Source: Magnetococcales bacterium | Lineage (GTDB): Bacteria > Pseudomonadota > Magnetococcia > Magnetococcales > DC0425bin3 | Reading direction: 5' to 3' | Assembly: GCA_015228935.1 (NCBI GenBank) | Contig: JADGCO010000034.1 | Coordinates: 1 to 42,219 of the forward strand | Length of the DNA: 42,219 bases | Part shown: positions 22,420 to 34,763 of the stretch, in pieces | How the letters are laid out: every line of letters begins with the position of its first letter | Numbering within the stretch: the stretch's first letter is position 1 | Made by a program: the position numbers and the translations under genes | The notes under the pieces: model-generated | Database searches by the model: none | What the model was told of the DNA's origin: nothing | The model's input: the letters and a program-made list of their open reading frames with translations, nothing else

Positions 22420-22938
22420 TTATCGGTTGCGACGCCGTGGAATGGATTTATGCAGGGGGGGAGTCGGCTGATGGCTTTTCAATCCCAGGTCGCCGGTCAG
22501 AATTTCCACGGTGCAGCCTGTCTGTGCGTAGTAATCGGCAACATCGACAATTGTGGCGTCTCCCAGGGAAATTCCCTGTGTGGCCATGTCGGGCCAATTG
22601 TCTGCCAATGAGAGCAATGTGTCGCGTTCCCAAAGATTGGTTTGGGCGACAAAGGCCGCCCAGGGGGTGTTTCCCTCGGCTGTGTCGCGAATGTATTTTC
22701 CCAGTTCCCGGGCCAAGCTGTGACGATCCCCTTTGCATTGGCTGATATGGTTGCCCGTTTCGATGATCGTAGCCAGGGGCAGGACGAAAGTCGATCCTTC
22801 TTTTTCTTCACGGGCAATCTGATTTGATATTCTTTTGTGATCCCACACATCTCCTTCAGGGCCACAAGTTTCTTTTCCCGGGACCTGCAACAGGCAGCAG
22901 AAGACGCTGGTATCGAAGATCAATGCCTTATTCGCCAT
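22420..22938 (-). CDS. PIN-like domain nuclease
   Basis: This 172-residue protein has an apparently intact PIN active site: Asp9 in LIFDTSVFCCLL, Glu60 in ATIIETGNH, Asp127 and Asp132 in LGDATIVDVADYY, and Asp150 in ILTGDLGL. PIN nucleases use such acidic residues to hold Mg2+ or Mn2+ and cut RNA; many are toxins (VapC). It is longer than VapC (~130 residues) because of inserts after the first and second acidic residues. The ATG at 22938 lies inside the 3' end of the ATPase gene (11-base overlap), so translation is coupled. No small VapB-like antitoxin gene is present. The ATPase is the likely partner. Confidence 0.82.
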   Translation of the reverse strand: MANKALIFDTSVFCCLLQVPGKETCGPEGDVWDHKRISNQIAREEKEGSTFVLPLATIIETGNHISQCKGDRHSLARELGKYIRDTAEGNTPWAAFVAQTNLWERDTLLSLADNWPDMATQGISLGDATIVDVADYYAQTGCTVEILTGDLGLKSHQPTPPLHKSIPRRRNR

Positions 22939-24145
22939 GGGCTTTGGTTCCACGGGTTCGCAAGGCCTCTTCGATACGACCCGAGGTGGCCAGGCGACCG
23001 ACCGGTCCATAGGCCAGGAGTTTGGCCAATTGGGGTGCCTCTTCCAGCAGGGTCAGGCGGCTTTCTCCGGTATCCGGATCCCGATGCACGACCGTGATGT
23101 AAGGCAACATGTCCGGTCCCATGGCATCGAGCAAGGCCGGATTGTGTGTTGTCACCAGGAGATCCACTCCCCGGTTTTTGCCTTCTTCCTTGAGCATTTG
23201 CACGAGTATTCCGGCCCGGGAAGGGTGCAGGCCTTGATCCACATCTTCAATGACCAGGAGCGAACCGGGAGGACGGGTAAACAGAGCCGTCAGAATGGCC
23301 AACAGCCGCAGGGTGCCATCGGACATACTGCGGGCATCCATGGTTTGAGTTGTCCCATTGCCATCATGCCATTTTTCTTCGCACTTGATGATGAAACAGT
23401 TCAGATCAGGTCCTTCCTGTTCGGCCCAGATGCGATGAATATCACCATCTGGTAAATATTTCAGGTATTTTTTAATTAGTTCATTAAATTTATTCAGGCT
23501 ATCCAAATCCATGGATGCCATAACACTGGCAGTATTTGATGCATCAGGTTGCATGATGTCGGTAATGGTCGAATATTCCCGCATACGAGGGGGGGTTGGG
23601 TTTAGTATGAAAATGTTTTTAAAAACATCTATTAATAATTGATGGTACCCTTTCAAGGGGGTGCGAGAGTTTGTATCCTGACGTATTTTTCTGGCAACAT
23701 GACGGCTTTTTTTATCCAATATATATTCAGCCAACGAACATTCTTGAAAGTTATTATTCATATGAGAATCCAAATATTGACGCACATTATAAAGGGATTT
23801 CAGGTCGCACTTGTTGGCCTGTATACGAGCATCAATGGAATAGACAAAATCGAGTGAAGAATTTTTCTGCGTTTCGTCGGCATCAAAAACGCCAGAAAGA
23901 AAAAAATCGTGATGCCCGCGAGTGACAGCCCACTTGAGGCCGCCGCGCACGGGGGGGAGGTTTTCGGTACCATTCAGGGCCTGGGTCGGGTCAATGCCAG
24001 AGACAACCCTCTGCATGAAGAGCAGGGCATCGACAATGTTGGATTTGCCACTGGCATTCGTGCCGATCAGGACGGTCAAAGGATCGATGTGCAGGGTTGC
24101 GTCGCGAAAGCTTTTCCAATGCCTGAGATGGAGTTCCTTGAGCAT
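22928..24145 (-). CDS. AAA ATPase of the AAA15/AAA21 (OLD-like, ABC-type) group
   Basis: This 405-residue protein has an ABC/SMC-type ATPase core split by a middle region. Walker A is GTNASGKS (residues 28-35), the signature-like motif is MSDGTLRLLAIL, Walker B LLVIEDVDQGLHPS, and the H-loop VTTHNPALL. Proteins of this kind often pair with a nuclease or other effector in phage defence (e.g. OLD, PARIS, RloA-like pairs). No TOPRIM nuclease is fused here; the separate PIN gene could supply that activity. The middle part is AT-richer than the ends. It starts 3 bases after the PPK2 stop. Confidence 0.88.
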   Translation of the reverse strand: MLKELHLRHWKSFRDATLHIDPLTVLIGTNASGKSNIVDALLFMQRVVSGIDPTQALNGTENLPPVRGGLKWAVTRGHHDFFLSGVFDADETQKNSSLDFVYSIDARIQANKCDLKSLYNVRQYLDSHMNNNFQECSLAEYILDKKSRHVARKIRQDTNSRTPLKGYHQLLIDVFKNIFILNPTPPRMREYSTITDIMQPDASNTASVMASMDLDSLNKFNELIKKYLKYLPDGDIHRIWAEQEGPDLNCFIIKCEEKWHDGNGTTQTMDARSMSDGTLRLLAILTALFTRPPGSLLVIEDVDQGLHPSRAGILVQMLKEEGKNRGVDLLVTTHNPALLDAMGPDMLPYITVVHRDPDTGESRLTLLEEAPQLAKLLAYGPVGRLATSGRIEEALRTRGTKAHGE

Positions 24146-26180: not shown

Positions 26181-28724
26181 ATGGGTTTGTTGTTGCTGGC
26201 CATGTTGCTGGGAATTTTATTGAACCTGCATGTTCCGGTCGGGGAGGGGGATCTTTGGGCCGTGCGCGGCATGGTTGGGCTGGCAACGTACCTGGCTTGG
26301 CGACAGGCTCCAGACGGATATGCACGCTGGCGGCGGCTGATCCTGGGTCTTGGGCTGGGTCTGGCGGCAGCGGCCTGGGAGGATTGGCAGGCGCTGCATC
26401 CCCACTGGGAGCCTGCGGTGGGCAAGGGAGGCAAGCCCTTTGTCGCCATGGTCGTAGATCGCAATGATCGGGATGATTCGGTGCAACTGCTGTTGGAGGA
26501 TTTTCGTTGGGACCAGGAAGAGGCCAGGAAGCCGGGATCGGAAAACGTTGACTTGCACCAGAAACAGACCGAGGTGTCGGTATCGGAAAACGTTGACCTG
26601 AACAAGAAACAGACCGAGGTGTCGGGAGCGGCAAACGTTGACCTGAACATGAAAAAGACCGAGGTGTCGGGAACGGCAAACGTTGACCTGAACAAGAAAC
26701 AGACCGAGGTGTCGGGAGCGGCAAACGTTGACTGGCACCGGGAACAGACCGAGGTGCCAGGATGGGTCCAATTGACCGTTTATCGGCAGGCCGTTGATCT
26801 CCTTCCGGGGGATCGGATTGCAGGTGTGGCCAGCGTGCGTCCCTGGACGGATTATCGGGTTCCAGGCGTATTCTCCTACGGAGACTTCATGCGCCGGCAG
26901 GGGGTGAAGGCCTCAGGATATACCCTGGAATCTCCCCGGGTGGTGGAACAGACCGGCCAGTGGCGCGTCAACCGTATGCGCCAACGCATTTCCGGATGGG
27001 TGACCGACCACATTCCCCCGCATCAACAAGGATTGGTGGAGGGGATCCTGGTCGGCAAACGGGGCCGCATCACCGAGCAACAGAATGAAACCATGCGCAG
27101 TGCCGGCCTGATTCACCTGGTGGCCATTTCAGGATCGAATCTGGGGCTGGTGGCCGGCTGGATGTTTTTTGGCCTGCGGCGCATCCTGCTCCTGGTGATG
27201 CCCCTGGCACGTCGTTGGGATGTCAAACGGTTTGCCGCCATGGGTGCCCTGCTGTTGACGCTGGGCTATGCAGCCCTGGCCGGGTGGTCGGTGGCTACGC
27301 AAAGGGCAGCCATCATGATTGCCATGTACCTGCTGGCCATGGCGCTGGGCCGGGGCAATCAATCCTGGCGTGCCCTGGGAATGGCCGCCATCCTGATTCT
27401 GTTGTTGCAGCCTCACCAACTGTTTCAGGCCGGGTTTCAACTGTCATTTCTGGCCGTGGCCACCCTGCTGGTGGTGACTGAAAGAAAATATGCCTCGGGC
27501 TGGTGGAACTATCCGGTGACCATGCTGCTCTCGACCGTTGCCATCGGCTGCGTGCTGACGCCGGTCACGGCACACCATTTTCATCAGGCGTCACCCTACG
27601 GCATGCTGGCCAATATTCCGGCCATTCCCTGGGTGGGGGTGGTGGCGGTTCCATTGGGCATGATCGGTTTGCTGTTGTTGCCCGTATCAAATACGGCAGG
27701 CGGTTGGGTATTGACCCTCATGGGCTGGAGTCTGGAGCTGTTTGATCGCTGGGCGGTCTGGATCAGCGATTTGCCGGGGGCCTGGCTGCGCCTGCCAGGC
27801 CCGACCTTGCCGGGCACGGTTCTCATGGTGCTGGCCATGGTGGGCGGAGTCGTGGGGCGGGGTGTCTGGCGACGCCTGGGTTGCCTGGTGTTGCTGGTCG
27901 GAGGCTGGTTCTGGCCCCATCCCGCGCCGCCTCCGGGATCCATGCAGGTGACGGTGCTGGATGTGCAACAGGGACAAAGCGTCCTGTTGCACGCCCCGAC
28001 CGGGGGGTGGTCGGTCATCGATGCCGGCGGTCCGGCGACGGCCCGCTTCAATGTCGGCGAATCCATCATCTCCGCCTACCTCTGGTACCAGGGAGTGCGA
28101 AAACTGGAGCGCCTCGTGTTGAGCCACCCGCAACAGGACCATATGGCCGGAGCCACCCGCCTGTTGCGCAATTTTCCGATTGGCGAACTCTGGTTGGGAT
28201 CGTTTCCCCGGGATGAGAACGAACGGACCGATTATCGACAGATTCTGGCCATGGCTGACCGGCAGGGTGTCACCATCCGTCGCTTTCAGACGGAAGTGAC
28301 GCTGCAAGCGGATGGCCTGGATTTTCGCATTCTGCCACCTTATCCGGGAGGTGGTGCCAGGCAGGATAACGACCACTCCCTGGTTCTGGAAGTGACGCAC
28401 GGCACGCAACGGGTGCTATTCCCGGGTGACATTCAAAAGGCTGGCGAAAAGTGGCTGGTGCGCAATGGCGCATTGGTACCGGTGGCACTGACATTGGCTC
28501 CTCATCACGGCAGTTCCGGCTCCAGTACCCCGGATTTTGTCCAGGGTGTCCATCCTGACCATGTGGTGTTCAGTGTCGGCAGAAACAATCGTTATGGATT
28601 TCCCAAAGAGGATACCCTGCAACGCTGGGCTGCGACCAAAGCCAGAATCTGGCGAACGGATCTGGATGGTACGGTCGTCTTTCGTTCGGATGGTCGCCGC
28701 CTGGAAAAGGTGGATGGGTTATGA
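26181..28724 (+). CDS. comEC: ComEC/Rec2 DNA-uptake channel with an internal repeat
   Basis: This 847-residue protein has the three ComEC parts: an N-terminal membrane and soluble OB-like region, the competence domain (GLVEGILVGKRGRI, AGLIHLVAISGSNLGLV) with many helices, and a C-terminal metallo-beta-lactamase domain from residue ~588. That domain holds DVQQGQSVLLHAP, SHPQQDHMAG, LFPGDIQ and APHHGSSGS. ComEC moves single-stranded DNA across the inner membrane during transformation. Residues ~120-194, in the N-terminal soluble part, are five tandem copies of a 15-residue unit (consensus like NVDLNKKQTEVSG). This is not a normal ComEC feature. The ATG at 26181 has GGAGAG 6 bases upstream. Confidence 0.93.
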   Translation: MGLLLLAMLLGILLNLHVPVGEGDLWAVRGMVGLATYLAWRQAPDGYARWRRLILGLGLGLAAAAWEDWQALHPHWEPAVGKGGKPFVAMVVDRNDRDDSVQLLLEDFRWDQEEARKPGSENVDLHQKQTEVSVSENVDLNKKQTEVSGAANVDLNMKKTEVSGTANVDLNKKQTEVSGAANVDWHREQTEVPGWVQLTVYRQAVDLLPGDRIAGVASVRPWTDYRVPGVFSYGDFMRRQGVKASGYTLESPRVVEQTGQWRVNRMRQRISGWVTDHIPPHQQGLVEGILVGKRGRITEQQNETMRSAGLIHLVAISGSNLGLVAGWMFFGLRRILLLVMPLARRWDVKRFAAMGALLLTLGYAALAGWSVATQRAAIMIAMYLLAMALGRGNQSWRALGMAAILILLLQPHQLFQAGFQLSFLAVATLLVVTERKYASGWWNYPVTMLLSTVAIGCVLTPVTAHHFHQASPYGMLANIPAIPWVGVVAVPLGMIGLLLLPVSNTAGGWVLTLMGWSLELFDRWAVWISDLPGAWLRLPGPTLPGTVLMVLAMVGGVVGRGVWRRLGCLVLLVGGWFWPHPAPPPGSMQVTVLDVQQGQSVLLHAPTGGWSVIDAGGPATARFNVGESIISAYLWYQGVRKLERLVLSHPQQDHMAGATRLLRNFPIGELWLGSFPRDENERTDYRQILAMADRQGVTIRRFQTEVTLQADGLDFRILPPYPGGGARQDNDHSLVLEVTHGTQRVLFPGDIQKAGEKWLVRNGALVPVALTLAPHHGSSGSSTPDFVQGVHPDHVVFSVGRNNRYGFPKEDTLQRWAATKARIWRTDLDGTVVFRSDGRRLEKVDGL
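26536..26760 (+). repeat. Five tandem 45-bp repeats inside comEC
   Basis: The marker AACGTTG recurs at 26544, 26589, 26634, 26679 and 26724, a constant 45-base period. The unit is a multiple of three, so the frame is kept. The outer copies diverge most (DLHQ and DWHRE versus DLNKK). Confidence 0.93.
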
Positions 28725-28760
28725 CGGAAATGTGGGGACCCGCTTGGGTTGCATGGTTGG

Positions 28761-28952
28761 GTTGGCCGGTTATCCGAAATGGCCTTGTCATCTGCGGGGC
28801 TGTCCCTGGGTGAGTTTGCACTCAGGTTCGCCGAGGGAACGGGTCAAGGTGAAAGAGTTGGCCGGTTATCCGGCCCGGATGTTTCATCTGCGGGGATACT
28901 CCCGGGGATCCTTGCACTCAGGTTCGCCGAGGGGACGGGTAAAGGTGAACTG
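28761..28952. repeat. 96-bp tandem duplication over a minus-strand gene's 3' end
   Basis: GTTGGCCGGTTATCC starts at 28761 and again at 28857, and the copies match imperfectly for about 96 bases. The second copy contains the last ~23 codons of the gene at 28884-29327. The first copy, beyond that gene's stop, could still encode a similar tail (RSLGEPECK). Confidence 0.8.
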
Positions 28953-29327
28953 GAGAGGTCTGACCACAAGTTCTCGGGCGGCCTGACCGGCATTGCCGCC
29001 AGCCAGACTGAAGGGCAGCGAGACAGTATAAAAGGCCACCCCTACCACCGATGCCACCAGACCCAGGGGGCGGCAGATCAGGCCATCGATGATCATGTCT
29101 TCTGCCCGCTGGCCAGCCGTGCGGCCATCCCCGGTCCAGGATGCTTCGGGATTGGCCAGAAGATCGTTCGGGGCGGCAAGCAGCAGGAGCAAAAACAGGC
29201 AGCCCAGGACAAGACCCAACCATCTTCTGGGTATGGTTTGCCTGTTCCTCGGGGGCCAATCCACAGGGCGTGTCGCGTGTGCCGTGCGCCGACCCGGGCC
29301 ATATGCCATGTATACCATGTTGATCAA
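28884..29327 (-). CDS. Small membrane-associated protein, unknown
   Basis: This 147-residue protein has one strong hydrophobic segment near the N-terminus (WLGLVLGCLFLLLLLAAP), possibly a signal peptide or anchor. A conserved-looking region follows: ICRPLGLVASVVGVAFYTVSLP and ELVVRPLQFTFTRPLGE. The RPLGLVxxVVG and FTFxRPLG pieces recall a family of short uncharacterised proteobacterial envelope proteins. Which ATG is used is uncertain; several lie in the first 20 residues. It is divergent from the large fusion gene at 29414. Confidence 0.65.
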   Translation of the reverse strand: MINMVYMAYGPGRRTAHATRPVDWPPRNRQTIPRRWLGLVLGCLFLLLLLAAPNDLLANPEASWTGDGRTAGQRAEDMIIDGLICRPLGLVASVVGVAFYTVSLPFSLAGGNAGQAARELVVRPLQFTFTRPLGEPECKDPREYPRR

Positions 29328-29413: not shown

Positions 29414-32400
29414 GTGCAATGGCGCTCTCTTGCCGAAAAGATCCTGCAATACCTGCTGCAATCGTGCCATCACGTTGAGCCAAATCTCATGGACTTGCAT
29501 CTCATGGCCATGGTGACATCCCATTTTTCATTGGTTTTCAATCCATACAAGGCCTGGCGGGAGTTTACCCGGGAACAGCGTCTGGTGTCGGGATTGTTTG
29601 TCCTGGCATTTTTGATCGGTGGCCTGCCCAAGGCCTTTACGTCGGCGGCGGTCAATGCCTTTTTCATTCAAACCTACGGTGCCGACTCTCTGCCCTATGT
29701 GTATCTCGGTCTGGCCATCATCACGCCGGCCATCGGTGCGTTTTATCTGCGCTGTGAACGCAACCTGCGCTATGCGACCCTTCTGACAGGCACCCTGTTG
29801 GTGAATGTGGCGGTTCTGGGGACGATATGGCTCGGTTGGCAGCATGGATACCGGTGGGTTGCCTTTGTGGCGGAGGTCTGGGAGAGCGTGGAGTGGGTGC
29901 TGACCAGCCTGGTCTTGTGGGGGTTGGCGGGGCGTCTCCTGGACATGCGACAAAGCAAACGTGCTTTTGGCCTGATCGGGATCGGGGAGCTGTTGGCCAT
30001 CGTGGCGGGTGGGATATTCACGCCGTTTTGGGTCAATCTGTTGGGGACGCCAGGTCTTTTGTTGCTCTCTGCCCTGAGTTGCCTCCTGGGGATCTGGCTG
30101 GTATCGGCCATGTTCAGGCATCTGGTCCCGCATGTGGCTGGCAATGCCGACGAGGGGCAGGAAGAGGAGCCTGTGGGCATCGGTGATGGTCCGGATCGAA
30201 CCTACATTCTGTTCATTCTCGCCCTGAGCGCCATCGGCGTCGTTGCCTATCATTTCATCGATAACGCCTTTTACGACAGTGTGGAAATGCATTTTCCCAC
30301 CGAGGATGCCCTCTCCTCCTACATGGGATCCTACAATGCCACCGTGGCCATGGTGGGACTCCTCTATCGATGGCTGTTCTCGGATTTTGTCTTCAATCGG
30401 CTGGGTATCCGGGTGGCGATTTTATTGCCGGCTCTGGCCCTGCTGGTTGGAAGCCTGGCCGTGGTCACGGCTGGTTGGGCCGTGGGCAACACCGGCTGGC
30501 TGTTCCTGATGATGACCAGTGGCAATAAACTCCTTGAAAATCTAGGCTCCGAAGCCATTCACAAAGGGGTTCTGCTGACGCTTTTTCAGCCCCTTTCACC
30601 CAGGCGACGCACCGGCATTCAGGTGGTGGTGGAATCTGTCGTGGAACCGGTGGCCGGCGGGGTGGCTGGTCTGGTATTGCTCTGGTGCAACAAGGGGCTG
30701 GGCTTTACGGCCCGGGAACTGACGGCCACCTCCCTGCTTGTGATATCGTTGTGGCTCTTTACAGCCTGGCGGTTACACGTTCACTACGTGGCGGCCCTGG
30801 GACGTGCCCTGGAGTGTCAACGTCTTGGCAGCGAGGCTTTTCTGGCCAGGGACGAGGCCAGCCTGGCCTTGTTGCGCCGGGGACTCTTCAGTCCAAAGCT
30901 TTCTTACAGCCTGTATTGCCTGCAATGGCTGGATCGGGAACGTGATCGCCACCTGGAGGAGGATATTCCCCGGCTGCTCGACCATCCGCATGCCGCCATG
31001 CGCAGTGCCACCGCCAGTGTGGTGGAACGCCGCCAACTGGTCGCTTCCTGGGAGGCCGTGCAAACGCGCCTGGCCGTGGAAAAGGATCCCAAGGTGCAGG
31101 GATGTCTCTTGCGCGCCCTGGCTGCCGTGGGTGAGGCGGATGCCATGGAAACGATCACCCCCTATGTGCGTGATCCCAATCCCCAGGTGCAGTGCGATGC
31201 CCTGGTGGCCATGCTCAAGCACTGCGGTATCGAAGGAATTATTGTGGCCGGGGCCGATTTGTTGCAGGCCGCCGCCTCCGCCCATCCCGAACGCCGCCGC
31301 ATGGCGGCCAAGGTGGTGGAAGAGGTCGCCGACAGTCATCTCTATCGAATTTTATTGCGCCTGCTGAACGATCCGGATCTCTCCGTGCGTCATGCCGCCC
31401 TGGAAGCGGCTACCCGACTGGCCTCGGTACCCAGATTGCAAAAAGCCGCCCTGGTGCATCTCCAGAATCGCGACACCACCCGCAAGGCCGAGGTCCTGTT
31501 GGTGGCGGCCGGACCGGGGGTTGTTCCCGATCTGGAACATCTCCTGACAGCGGATCAGAGTCCGGATTGGGTCAAAATGCGGGTCATCGCCATTCTGGGA
31601 CAGATGCCGGTGGCTGCATCCTGGTCCATTCTGGAAACATTTCTTGCCACGGCGACGCCGGATTTGCGGCATGCAACCCTGCGAGCGCTCCGCCTTTTGC
31701 AGCACCGGGTACCCATGGAACGCCAGCCGGACTGGGTGACCTTGTTGCTGCATGAAGTGCGGCAATTTACCGAATGGCTGGCCATCGGCATTGACCTGGA
31801 ACAGGCGGGTTCCATGCAGATGGCCAGGGATGGCATGCAACTGGAAATGGAACGTATCCAGGAACGGATTTTCATTCTGCTGGCCTTTTCATATCCGCAG
31901 GCGGCGTTGCAGGATGTCTGGATGCAATTTGCCAGTGGCAAGCCGGACAAACGGGCCTATGCCATAGAAATCATTGATAATATATTGCCGCAGACCCTCA
32001 AGGGTCCGGTGATACCGGTCCTGGAGGAAAAACCCCCGATTGAGCGGTTGCAAAGTCTGGCCACGTTTCATCCCCAGCGCTGCCTGGGTCTGACGGCCCG
32101 TTTGCCAACCCTGAAAGAGTCCCCTTTGCTCCGAGACAAGCCATGGATCCGTGCCAGTCTGGTTTATGGTGCTGCCACGCTGGGGGGGGAGGTGTTTTTT
32201 CAATTGGCTGCAACGACCCATCTCGACGCGCATCCGGTATTGCGGGAGACCGCAGCCCGGGTCGCCCTGAACTGGCCGGCACCCCACGCCTGCCAAATAC
32301 TATCGACTTTGATTGCGGATTCCGATCCCCGGGTTGCCGATATGGCCCGACGCATGCTTGTCCAGGTGGAGGCCGCCGGAAGCACAACAGGTGCCGCAAG

Positions 32401-32851
32401 CGGGAGAATGCCCATGTCCACGATCGAGAAAATTATTTTTCTCAAACAGATTGCGCTGTTTTCCAGCATTCCGGAAGAGTACCTCATGGATATTGCCAAT
32501 CGGATGGAGGAGGGGGAGTCCCTGCCCGGCGAGGCAATCGTGCGACAGGGAGAGTGGGGCAATGCCCTCTACATCATCGGCAGCGGCCAGGTGCGGGTGA
32601 TCGTCAACGGCAACGAAGTGGCGGTCATGCACGAAGGGGATGTGTTTGGTGAATTGGCCTTGCTGGATCCGGAACCCCGCTCGGCCACGGTCGCAGCCGT
32701 TGGCGACGTGCGTCATTATCGCATCGACGGTCAGGTATTTGACGAAATCATGGCCATTGAACCCTCGGTTGCCCGTAACATCATTCGCATGCTCTGTCGC
32801 CGCCTGCGGGAACTCCATCAGCGCGTAACCCAAAAGGAACCGAAATCATGA
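29414..32851 (+). CDS. Nucleotide-transporter-like membrane domain fused to HEAT repeats and a cNMP-binding domain
   Basis: This 1145-residue protein has three parts. Residues ~55-460 form about ten to twelve membrane helices, like the ATP/ADP-translocase or MFS superfamily (AFLIGGLPKAFTSAAVNAFF, HFIDNAFYDSVEMHFP). Residues ~480-990 are HEAT-like helical repeats (LLRALAAVGEADAMETITP, LLNDPDLSVRHAALEAATRL). Residues ~1005-1135 form a cyclic-nucleotide-binding domain with the phosphate-binding cassette FGELALLDPEPRSATVAA. The order suggests a transporter-derived membrane sensor controlled by cAMP or cGMP, but transport itself is not shown. The start is unsure: ATGs at 29489, 29504 and 29510 are also possible, and none has a clear ribosome-binding site. 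HDOD and MBL genes follow closely. Confidence 0.85.
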   Translation: MQWRSLAEKILQYLLQSCHHVEPNLMDLHLMAMVTSHFSLVFNPYKAWREFTREQRLVSGLFVLAFLIGGLPKAFTSAAVNAFFIQTYGADSLPYVYLGLAIITPAIGAFYLRCERNLRYATLLTGTLLVNVAVLGTIWLGWQHGYRWVAFVAEVWESVEWVLTSLVLWGLAGRLLDMRQSKRAFGLIGIGELLAIVAGGIFTPFWVNLLGTPGLLLLSALSCLLGIWLVSAMFRHLVPHVAGNADEGQEEEPVGIGDGPDRTYILFILALSAIGVVAYHFIDNAFYDSVEMHFPTEDALSSYMGSYNATVAMVGLLYRWLFSDFVFNRLGIRVAILLPALALLVGSLAVVTAGWAVGNTGWLFLMMTSGNKLLENLGSEAIHKGVLLTLFQPLSPRRRTGIQVVVESVVEPVAGGVAGLVLLWCNKGLGFTARELTATSLLVISLWLFTAWRLHVHYVAALGRALECQRLGSEAFLARDEASLALLRRGLFSPKLSYSLYCLQWLDRERDRHLEEDIPRLLDHPHAAMRSATASVVERRQLVASWEAVQTRLAVEKDPKVQGCLLRALAAVGEADAMETITPYVRDPNPQVQCDALVAMLKHCGIEGIIVAGADLLQAAASAHPERRRMAAKVVEEVADSHLYRILLRLLNDPDLSVRHAALEAATRLASVPRLQKAALVHLQNRDTTRKAEVLLVAAGPGVVPDLEHLLTADQSPDWVKMRVIAILGQMPVAASWSILETFLATATPDLRHATLRALRLLQHRVPMERQPDWVTLLLHEVRQFTEWLAIGIDLEQAGSMQMARDGMQLEMERIQERIFILLAFSYPQAALQDVWMQFASGKPDKRAYAIEIIDNILPQTLKGPVIPVLEEKPPIERLQSLATFHPQRCLGLTARLPTLKESPLLRDKPWIRASLVYGAATLGGEVFFQLAATTHLDAHPVLRETAARVALNWPAPHACQILSTLIADSDPRVADMARRMLVQVEAAGSTTGAASGRMPMSTIEKIIFLKQIALFSSIPEEYLMDIANRMEEGESLPGEAIVRQGEWGNALYIIGSGQVRVIVNGNEVAVMHEGDVFGELALLDPEPRSATVAAVGDVRHYRIDGQVFDEIMAIEPSVARNIIRMLCRRLRELHQRVTQKEPKS

Positions 32852-32867
32852 TGGATCGCAGCAGGGG

Positions 32868-33857
32868 ATGTTTTCTGCGAAAACGACAAAAAAGCATTGT
32901 ATTGGGGGGGAGTTGCCGGGTACCTTATCAAAAGAGTCCGTCTTTAACCTCAATGCCCGACCTGTGGTCACCTTGACTGCGGGTTTTGGTCCGGTTGCAC
33001 GCCACATGGGAGAACTGTATCAAAAGCTGATCAAAATGGTGGACAAAATGCCCGCTTTTCCCAAAAGTGTGCATCGTGTCCTGCAATTGACTTCGGATTT
33101 GAACTACAGCCACAAAGAGCTGATCCGGATCATCAATCACGATCCGGTCATGACGCTCAAAATCCTGAAACTGGTCAATTCAGTCTATTTTGGATTTCCG
33201 CGCCAGGTCGCTTCGATCAACCAGGCCGTGGTGTTTCTGGGCATGAACACCATCAAAAATCTGGCCTTGAGCGTGGCCACGCGAGGTATGTTGCCGCAGT
33301 TGGACCACGGCGGATTGCATACCAACCAGTTTTTGCTCCACTCGGTGGGTGTGGGAACCGTGGCCAAACTCCTGGCCCGCAAGCTCGCCGTGCCTGAACC
33401 GGAACTGACCGACTATTTTGTGGCCGGGTTATTGCACGATTTCGGCAAGGTTCTTTTTTCTCAGTTCATGCCGGGAGAGTTTCAGGAGGTTTTGGAGAGA
33501 GCGCGAGTCCAGGGAATTTCCCTGCACCTGGTGGAAAGAGATCTGATTGGTGCAGATCACACGGAAATTGGTTCCCTGCTTGGAGAAAAATGGCATCTTC
33601 CCCCTGACCTGGTGACGGCCATCCGCAGTCATCACGCCGACCCTGCCACGGCACCAGACTCTTGCATGCTCCACTGCGTCCAGGTCGCCAACCGAATCAC
33701 CAAACAGTTGCGCTTTGGCGATGCGGGCAATTCAACTCTTGAACCTCTCTCCCCTGCTGTCCTGAATCGGTTCGGCATGGATGCGGATGCGTTGTTGCAA
33801 TCCCTGGGAAACCTGGATGAAGAGATGAAAAAAGCACAGGTTTTCATCCGTCTATAA
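32868..33857 (+). CDS. HDOD domain protein
   Basis: This 329-residue protein holds an HDOD domain: MPAFPKSVHRVLQLTSD, IINHDPVMTLKILKLVNS, then INQAVVFLGMNTIKNLALSV and GLLHDFGKVLF. HDOD proteins are HD-superfamily relatives, usually without phosphodiesterase activity, that take part in stress and motility signalling. Here an HD pair is retained in LLHDFGK, so activity cannot be excluded. The first ~45 residues are not conserved-looking, and the ATG at 33006 is an alternative start. It lies 16 bases after the transporter-HEAT-cNMP gene and 18 before the MBL gene, so all three are likely one operon. Confidence 0.88.
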   Translation: MFSAKTTKKHCIGGELPGTLSKESVFNLNARPVVTLTAGFGPVARHMGELYQKLIKMVDKMPAFPKSVHRVLQLTSDLNYSHKELIRIINHDPVMTLKILKLVNSVYFGFPRQVASINQAVVFLGMNTIKNLALSVATRGMLPQLDHGGLHTNQFLLHSVGVGTVAKLLARKLAVPEPELTDYFVAGLLHDFGKVLFSQFMPGEFQEVLERARVQGISLHLVERDLIGADHTEIGSLLGEKWHLPPDLVTAIRSHHADPATAPDSCMLHCVQVANRITKQLRFGDAGNSTLEPLSPAVLNRFGMDADALLQSLGNLDEEMKKAQVFIRL

Positions 33858-33875
33858 TCGTTGGGAGAGTGACCT

Positions 33876-34763
33876 TTGAAAATCCGTTTTTGGGGTGTGC
33901 GCGGTTCCATCGCCTGTCCTGGCCCCCAAACCATCAAGTATGGAGGCAATACCACCTGCATCGAAATCCGTACCGACGAAAATGATTTGATCATCCTCGA
34001 TGCCGGAACCGGCATTTTTCCGCTTTCGCACACCTTGTTCGGTGAACTCCCTCTGACCTGTCACATATTCATCACCCACACCCATTGGGATCATATCCAG
34101 GGTCTGCCTTTTTTTATTCCCACCTTCATTCCCGGCAATACGGTCCGTCTGCACGGAGCGTTCGATCCCATCAACAATGGCGATCTCCGGGAGGTTTTGT
34201 CGCGCCAGATGGAGTATTGCTATTTTCCGGTCCGGGAGGCAGAGCTGCAAGCCAACATGCACTATGTCACCTTGCGGGAACGACAAACCATCCAGGTGGG
34301 TTCGGCCAGGGTGACCAATATTTTCATGAACCATCCGGTCCTCAATTTTGGCTATCGGGTCGAATGCCGTGGCAAGTCGGTCTTTTTTACCGGTGACCAT
34401 GAACCCATGACCAATGTCTACGATATTGAAGATGATGGTTTCCCGGAATATCAGACACTCATGGACCAGAAACACCAATCCATCACGGAATTTATTCGGG
34501 GTGTCGATGTCCTGATTGCCGATACAAGCTATACCCCGGAGGAGTACAAAACCAAAAAGGGGTGGGGGCATGGTACCTTCGATACGAGTATTCACCTCGG
34601 GCGGGAAACCGGTGCCAAACACCTCTTTTTTACCCACCACGAACCAACCCGGTCCGATGCCGCCCTCGAAAAGGTGTTTCAGGAAGCCATGGAACGCCAC
34701 CCTAGACAACCCGGTGATCCCGTCTATCACCTGGCCCGGGAAGGGTTGATATTTGAGGTGTAG
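33876..34763 (+). CDS. Metallo-beta-lactamase fold hydrolase
   Basis: This 295-residue protein starts with KIRFWGVRGSIACPGP, the usual N-terminus of this MBL-fold group. The metal site HTHWDHIQG follows, with later ligands in FMNHPV, FFTGDHEP, IADTSY and FFTHHEP. The group hydrolyses phosphodiester or similar bonds with two metal ions; some members resemble phosphodiesterases of the PhnP/RNase Z type. It starts at TTG (33876) with GGGAG 7-8 bases upstream, and no ATG gives this N-terminus. Third gene of the cNMP-HDOD-MBL set; a role in cyclic-nucleotide turnover is possible but only inferred. Confidence 0.88.
   Translation: MKIRFWGVRGSIACPGPQTIKYGGNTTCIEIRTDENDLIILDAGTGIFPLSHTLFGELPLTCHIFITHTHWDHIQGLPFFIPTFIPGNTVRLHGAFDPINNGDLREVLSRQMEYCYFPVREAELQANMHYVTLRERQTIQVGSARVTNIFMNHPVLNFGYRVECRGKSVFFTGDHEPMTNVYDIEDDGFPEYQTLMDQKHQSITEFIRGVDVLIADTSYTPEEYKTKKGWGHGTFDTSIHLGRETGAKHLFFTHHEPTRSDAALEKVFQEAMERHPRQPGDPVYHLAREGLIFEV

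Follow-up and report, generated by a model that had tools for sequence, protein, structure and literature searches.

An NTT-HEAT-cNBD fusion gene upstream of a conserved HDOD-MBL gene pair in a Magnetococcales bacterium

The present study asks whether three neighbouring genes of a Magnetococcales bacterium, encoding a transporter-like fusion protein, an HDOD protein and an MBL-fold hydrolase, belong to one membrane-bound cyclic-nucleotide signalling unit, as a sequence-only reading had proposed, or are better understood as separate units that happen to adjoin. The window is the whole stretch of DNA that was analysed, 42,219 nucleotides of contig JADGCO010000034.1 (assembly GCA_015228935.1). 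The features on which the argument turns are as follows.

29510..32851, + strand: NTT-HEAT-cNBD fusion gene, most likely extent (frame open from 29414; orthologue start, Pfam and PDB homology)
29510..30850, + strand: NTT-like membrane domain (residues 33-479 of the 1145-residue reading; homology to PDB 9j3j, hydrophobic peaks)
30851..32400, + strand: HEAT-repeat region, approximate limits (Pfam HEAT_2 in four stretches, best at 615-686)
32525..32755, + strand: cyclic-nucleotide-binding domain, cNBD (residues 1038-1114; Pfam cNMP_binding)
32648-32689, + strand: phosphate cassette, GELALLDPEPRSAT (residues 1079-1092)
32852..33008, + strand: likely gap between fusion and HDOD genes, 157 bases (HDOD start alignment)
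33009..33857, + strand: HDOD gene, likely extent 282 residues (Pfam, start alignment, HDOD-type proteins in the PDB)
33876..34763, + strand: MBL-fold hydrolase gene, 295 residues (Pfam, invariant metal ligands, conserved pairing with HDOD)

Gene layout and start sites

Taken as longest open reading frames, the genes are closely packed, with a GTG-initiated frame of 1145 residues at 29414-32851 (+) followed after 16 bases by an HDOD frame at 32868-33857 (+, 329 residues) and after a further 18 bases by the MBL frame at 33876-34763 (+). It was in this form that the locus had been described, as a 1145-residue protein with its two neighbours following within 20 bases each. The large frame is indeed present, but its start most likely lies further in, because the first residue of the orthologue in the same-genus genome G001 (L009, 62% identical) corresponds to M33 of the window protein; the fusion would then start at 29510 and have 1113 residues, the start at 29414 being over-extended. 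The HDOD start likewise appears to need revision. Homology among HDOD relatives runs mostly from about residue 48 onward (36 loci examined, 35 of which yielded both genes), and in several of them (L078, L081, L082, L088 and L089) a stop codon lies 1-4 codons ahead of the methionine in this region, for which reasons the HDOD gene likely starts at 33009. The spacing within 20 bases consequently holds between HDOD and MBL, where the 18-base gap is unchanged by the revision, but likely not between the fusion and HDOD, where 157 bases would replace 16.

Three other observations were made elsewhere in the window. A comEC-like gene (26181-28724) contains at 26533-26756 five in-frame copies of a 45-base unit (89% matches), which give a 15-residue repeat. 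Downstream of comEC, the translation of an open reading frame at 28537-28986 has a stretch, noticed by eye, in which HLRG and SLHSGSPR motifs each occur twice. On the opposite strand, two adjoining genes at 22420-24145 (-) match PDC-M07B (2.1e-48) and PDC-M07A (3.2e-129) in PADLOC and are a candidate anti-phage defence pair.

Linkage of the three genes

Of 398 genomes examined across the phylum, 69 carry an orthologue of the MBL gene (E 1e-70 or better), comprising 34 of the 48 Magnetococcales and 35 other genomes, and in 65 of these 69 an HDOD gene lies immediately upstream on the same strand. The arrangement occurs in all 34 Magnetococcales that carry the MBL gene (30 counted from coordinates, plus G007, G043, G045 and G046, the HDOD protein of G007 being only 30% identical) and in 31 of the 35 others (18/19 and 13/16). 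The four genomes with no HDOD gene upstream are G293, G200, G277 and G176, in the last of which the locus is cut by a contig end. The HDOD-MBL pairing is genuine and conserved, usually found without the transporter fusion, and a search of titles and abstract beginnings, in a collection whose coverage omits most subscription journals, returned no paper on it. In two genomes (G016, L022; G017, L018) the HDOD gene has one in-frame stop, which could be an assembly error or a sign of decay.

The fusion behaves differently. None of the 55 loci fetched from the 68 MBL loci outside the window (16 + 20 + 19, with flanks of varying length, covering 20 of the 33 other Magnetococcales loci) contained a match to NTT, HEAT or cNBD at 1e-8. 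In the same-genus genome G002 the gene ahead of HDOD encodes an MCP rather than the fusion, and G002, G014 and G024 each carry the fusion on a different contig from the pair. In the closest relative, G001, the 384 bases downstream of the fusion lack HDOD sequence and the genome has no MBL match, but this is a weak test of linkage because the contig ends at those 384 bases and the genome is 76% complete. The order fusion-HDOD-MBL was seen once, in the window, and as far as seen the fusion stands upstream of the pair in the window's lineage only. A conserved three-gene operon was rejected given that the pair is kept without the fusion and that no match to the fusion's domains was found at the 55 other MBL loci fetched. 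The earlier proposal that the three genes act as one unit had been tied to conservation of their order, and it is only for HDOD and MBL that such linkage is conserved. Co-transcription of all three genes in the window's own strain is possible, because they share a strand and a scan of the gap between the fusion and HDOD found no terminator-like site on the + strand.

The fusion protein and its relatives

Pfam and PDB profile matches support the reading of the large protein as transporter-like membrane domain, HEAT array and cNMP-binding domain. The cNMP_binding family (PF00027) was matched at 9.1e-20 (70.9 bits against a cut-off of 27.5), HEAT_2 at 3.5e-16 and TLC (nucleotide transporter, PF03219) with 22.6 bits against a cut-off of 21, while MFS_1 was under its cut-off (29.1 against 33.4); all but one of its 13 hydrophobic peaks lie within the NTT-like part. 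The cNBD profile matches PKA, PKG and SthK chains in the PDB, and the phosphate cassette is intact, as had been claimed, with E1080 and R1089. When C-termini were compared by eye, the cassette arginine was kept in four of five fusions, the exception being L126. PADLOC also matched the C-terminal domain to Pycsar TIR effectors, but only across the cyclic-nucleotide domain, and these matches were not used as evidence. Class III cyclases are matched 10 times in the window's genome.

A single chain with NTT, HEAT and cNBD in that order is the architecture published for bacteria in 2017 (Major, Embley and Williams, PMC5381601). In the part of that paper available, which does not name Magnetococcales, the domain order is identical and no difference in kind from the window protein was found, and by its domains the window fusion is a Magnetococcales member of an already published kind of protein. 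The same part also describes separate cNBD genes; the window's relatives have a fused cNBD, and G024 adds a separate gene of the sort described. In that genome (L126:4648-8258) the fusion ends in a degenerate cNBD, without the cassette arginine as judged by eye, and is followed by a second cNBD gene at L126:7845-8258 that overlaps the fusion's end, which makes this a split or duplicated form. In G002 (L127:7605-9497), genes for a PP2C phosphatase and a class III cyclase-FHA protein lie near the NTT-HEAT-cNBD fusion.

With the window protein as query, the fusion was matched at 1e-20 in at least five of 61 genomes, namely G000 (the window's own), G001, G002, G014 and G024. The match in G002 was through the cyclic-nucleotide domain only, and with a three-row profile both G002 and G024 were matched over their NTT and HEAT regions. 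At 1e-40 this profile found at least five of 398 genomes, three of them those of its own rows. At most 12 candidates per genome were scored in the 61-genome search and two in the 398-genome search, so that absences of the fusion weigh little in these counts. Among the matches scored there was one close orthologue, in the same-genus genome G001.

The membrane domain alone matched the plant plastid ATP/ADP carrier 9j3j in the PDB at E 4.3e-7, and a five-row profile of related membrane domains matched 9j3j at 2.6e-27 and 9j3n at 4.6e-27, with no further PDB match at 0.001; EmrE-like matches (0.0018 and weaker) rank below the NTT match and were set aside. Both the PF03219 score and the 9j3j match place the domain in the TLC/NTT family. 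Residues K155, E245, E385 and K527 matter in the plant carrier, K155 being linked to ADP binding and K527 to ATP binding, according to the available parts of PMC3306366 and PMC10654386. Using an offset of 84 between AtNTT1 and PDB chain numbering, which we inferred and which gives the expected letter at all four positions, these residues map to Y97, E154, D283 and G415 of the window protein. Across the five fusions the K155 position is Y, Y, F, Y and C, in a stretch that aligns weakly (-3.4 bits), and the K527 position is G, G, I, T and Q, with lysine in none of the five at either. The E385 position is acidic throughout (D, D, E, D, D). At E245 the residues are E, A, T, R and A in an uncertain column, E245 aligning with E154 in the window but with other residues in the orthologue. 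Compared with AtNTT1 (PDB 9j3j; 9j3n) and the carriers of plastids and intracellular bacteria, the window protein has a homologous membrane domain with an acid at the E385 position, but has Y97 for K155, G415 for K527, an uncertain match at E245, and HEAT and cNBD parts fused to it. The charge set of the classical carriers is incomplete in the window fusion, with the K155 column weakly aligned, and classical ATP/ADP exchange appears unlikely because both nucleotide-binding lysines are replaced here and in the four related fusions. A literature search on NTT structure found no paper, and an AlphaFold2 model of the NTT domain from a two-row alignment was unusable (mean pLDDT 40.9).

The HDOD and MBL proteins and the possible function of the locus

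Both smaller genes proved to be what they had been called. The HDOD protein matches PF08668 at 2.2e-56 (190.9 bits against a cut-off of 22.9) and the HDOD-type proteins 3m1t (2.3e-30) and 3hc1 (1.4e-26) in the PDB. Of the H...HD...D metal site that marks catalytic HD phosphohydrolases, 33 of 36 rows retain H111 and H143 and 32 retain D144, two rows (L115 and L125) having been shortened by ORF extraction, and the presumed last-Asp metal position is N228, with N in 28 of the 36. The MBL protein matches Lactamase_B_2 (PF12706) at 2.6e-17 (63.5 bits against a cut-off of 27), and its metal ligands H68, H70, D72, H73, H153, D174 and H254 are complete and invariant in 37 of 37 rows. It has the HxHxDH motif at residues 68-73 (THTHWDH with the preceding threonine), a type of motif general to MBL proteins. 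Its scores are far below the curated cut-offs both for RNase Z (TIGR02651, 65.3 against 292.95) and for the cyclic-nucleotide-degrading phosphodiesterases (NF041851, 42.1 against 400). A ten-row profile gave nine PDB matches, RNase Z first (1.8e-8), with the cyclic-nucleotide phosphodiesterase 4ojv matched weakly (0.0034). An AlphaFold2 model of the MBL protein alone was unusable (mean pLDDT 32.0).

Two comparisons bear on what the MBL protein may do. It shares the PF12706 family and the [T/S]HxHxDH motif with the atypical class-II cAMP phosphodiesterases (Rv1339 group), for which that motif is given in the available part of PMC9293780, but has the low NF041851 score noted above, and the group's YhfI (6KNS) is absent from its nine PDB matches. 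Distant relatives in the same order belong to this MBL subfamily, with 32-38% identity across the matched region, and 12 of 13 have a receiver-like N-terminal part (L159-L169 and L171; 11 by eye, L160 by Pfam), L170 being the one without; the window MBL has no receiver and pairs with HDOD instead. In G293 (L120:4222-9264) the MBL orthologue is oriented divergently to genes for a GAF-HD-GYP protein and a CHASE2-class III cyclase. These neighbours and the receiver-bearing paralogues point to a role of the MBL protein in signal transduction.

The explanation that we favour, and consider reasonably probable, is that two separate units stand side by side in the window, an NTT-HEAT-cNBD fusion acting as a gated carrier and a conserved HDOD-MBL signalling pair. 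In the fusion, a HEAT solenoid in the cytoplasm would lie between a carrier-like membrane domain and a sensor at the C-terminus. cAMP or cGMP made by a class III cyclase of the cell may bind this C-terminal domain, the solenoid would relay the resulting shape change to the membrane domain, and transport of a nucleotide-like or other small anion would be gated in this way. Since the lysines that bind ADP and ATP are missing, this cargo is probably something other than exchanged ATP/ADP, though transport could use residues other than the carrier lysines. In the pair, the MBL protein would be an active metallo-hydrolase, perhaps of phosphodiesterase type, and HDOD its regulatory partner, presumably in contact with it. 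Alternatively, the membrane domain may have lost transport and serve only as a membrane anchor for a HEAT scaffold that senses cyclic nucleotides. The non-lysine residues at the K155 and K527 equivalents in all five fusions and the weak TLC score are consistent with such a loss, but the acid kept at the E385 position in all five, and 64% identity of the membrane domain with its orthologue, which suggests constraint beyond helix hydrophobicity, make it unlikely on balance, albeit a serious contender.

The remaining possibilities seem less probable. A wider and rather doubtful proposal is that HDOD-MBL constitutes a second-messenger module not described before, present in Magnetococcales and in one or more further families of the phylum. 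The MBL protein, with its receiver-protein paralogues, would in that case hydrolyse a nucleotide signal that HDOD senses or gates, and in the window's strain the module would have been joined with a cyclic-nucleotide-gated NTT fusion. Ordinary import of ATP/ADP or nucleotides by the fusion, with cAMP tuning the activity, is suggested in the available part of PMC5381601 and would fit the fusion's homology to ATP/ADP carriers, but the absence of the plant carrier's nucleotide-binding lysines makes this improbable. Least probable, and in our judgement very unlikely, is a single membrane-bound operon in which the MBL protein degrades the fusion's own ligand. Common strand, close spacing and the lack of a + strand terminator-like site before HDOD would agree with it, as would the fit of THTHWDH to the class-II motif and the cyclase and GAF-HD-GYP genes beside the MBL orthologue of G293; but that same locus has no HDOD match beside MBL, the motif is a general one and the NF041851 score far below its cut-off, no match to the fusion domains was found at the 55 fetched of the 68 other MBL loci, and the one close orthologue that the fusion has among the scored matches shows no HDOD beside it in the 384 bases before its contig ends.

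With the fusion, a published family of putative function gains a representative from Magnetococcales, and the missing nucleotide-binding lysines of this protein make ATP import by such fusions a guess to be tested rather than assumed. With its linkage in 65 of 69 genomes, invariant metal ligands and receiver-linked paralogues, the HDOD-MBL pair would be a better target than the fusion.
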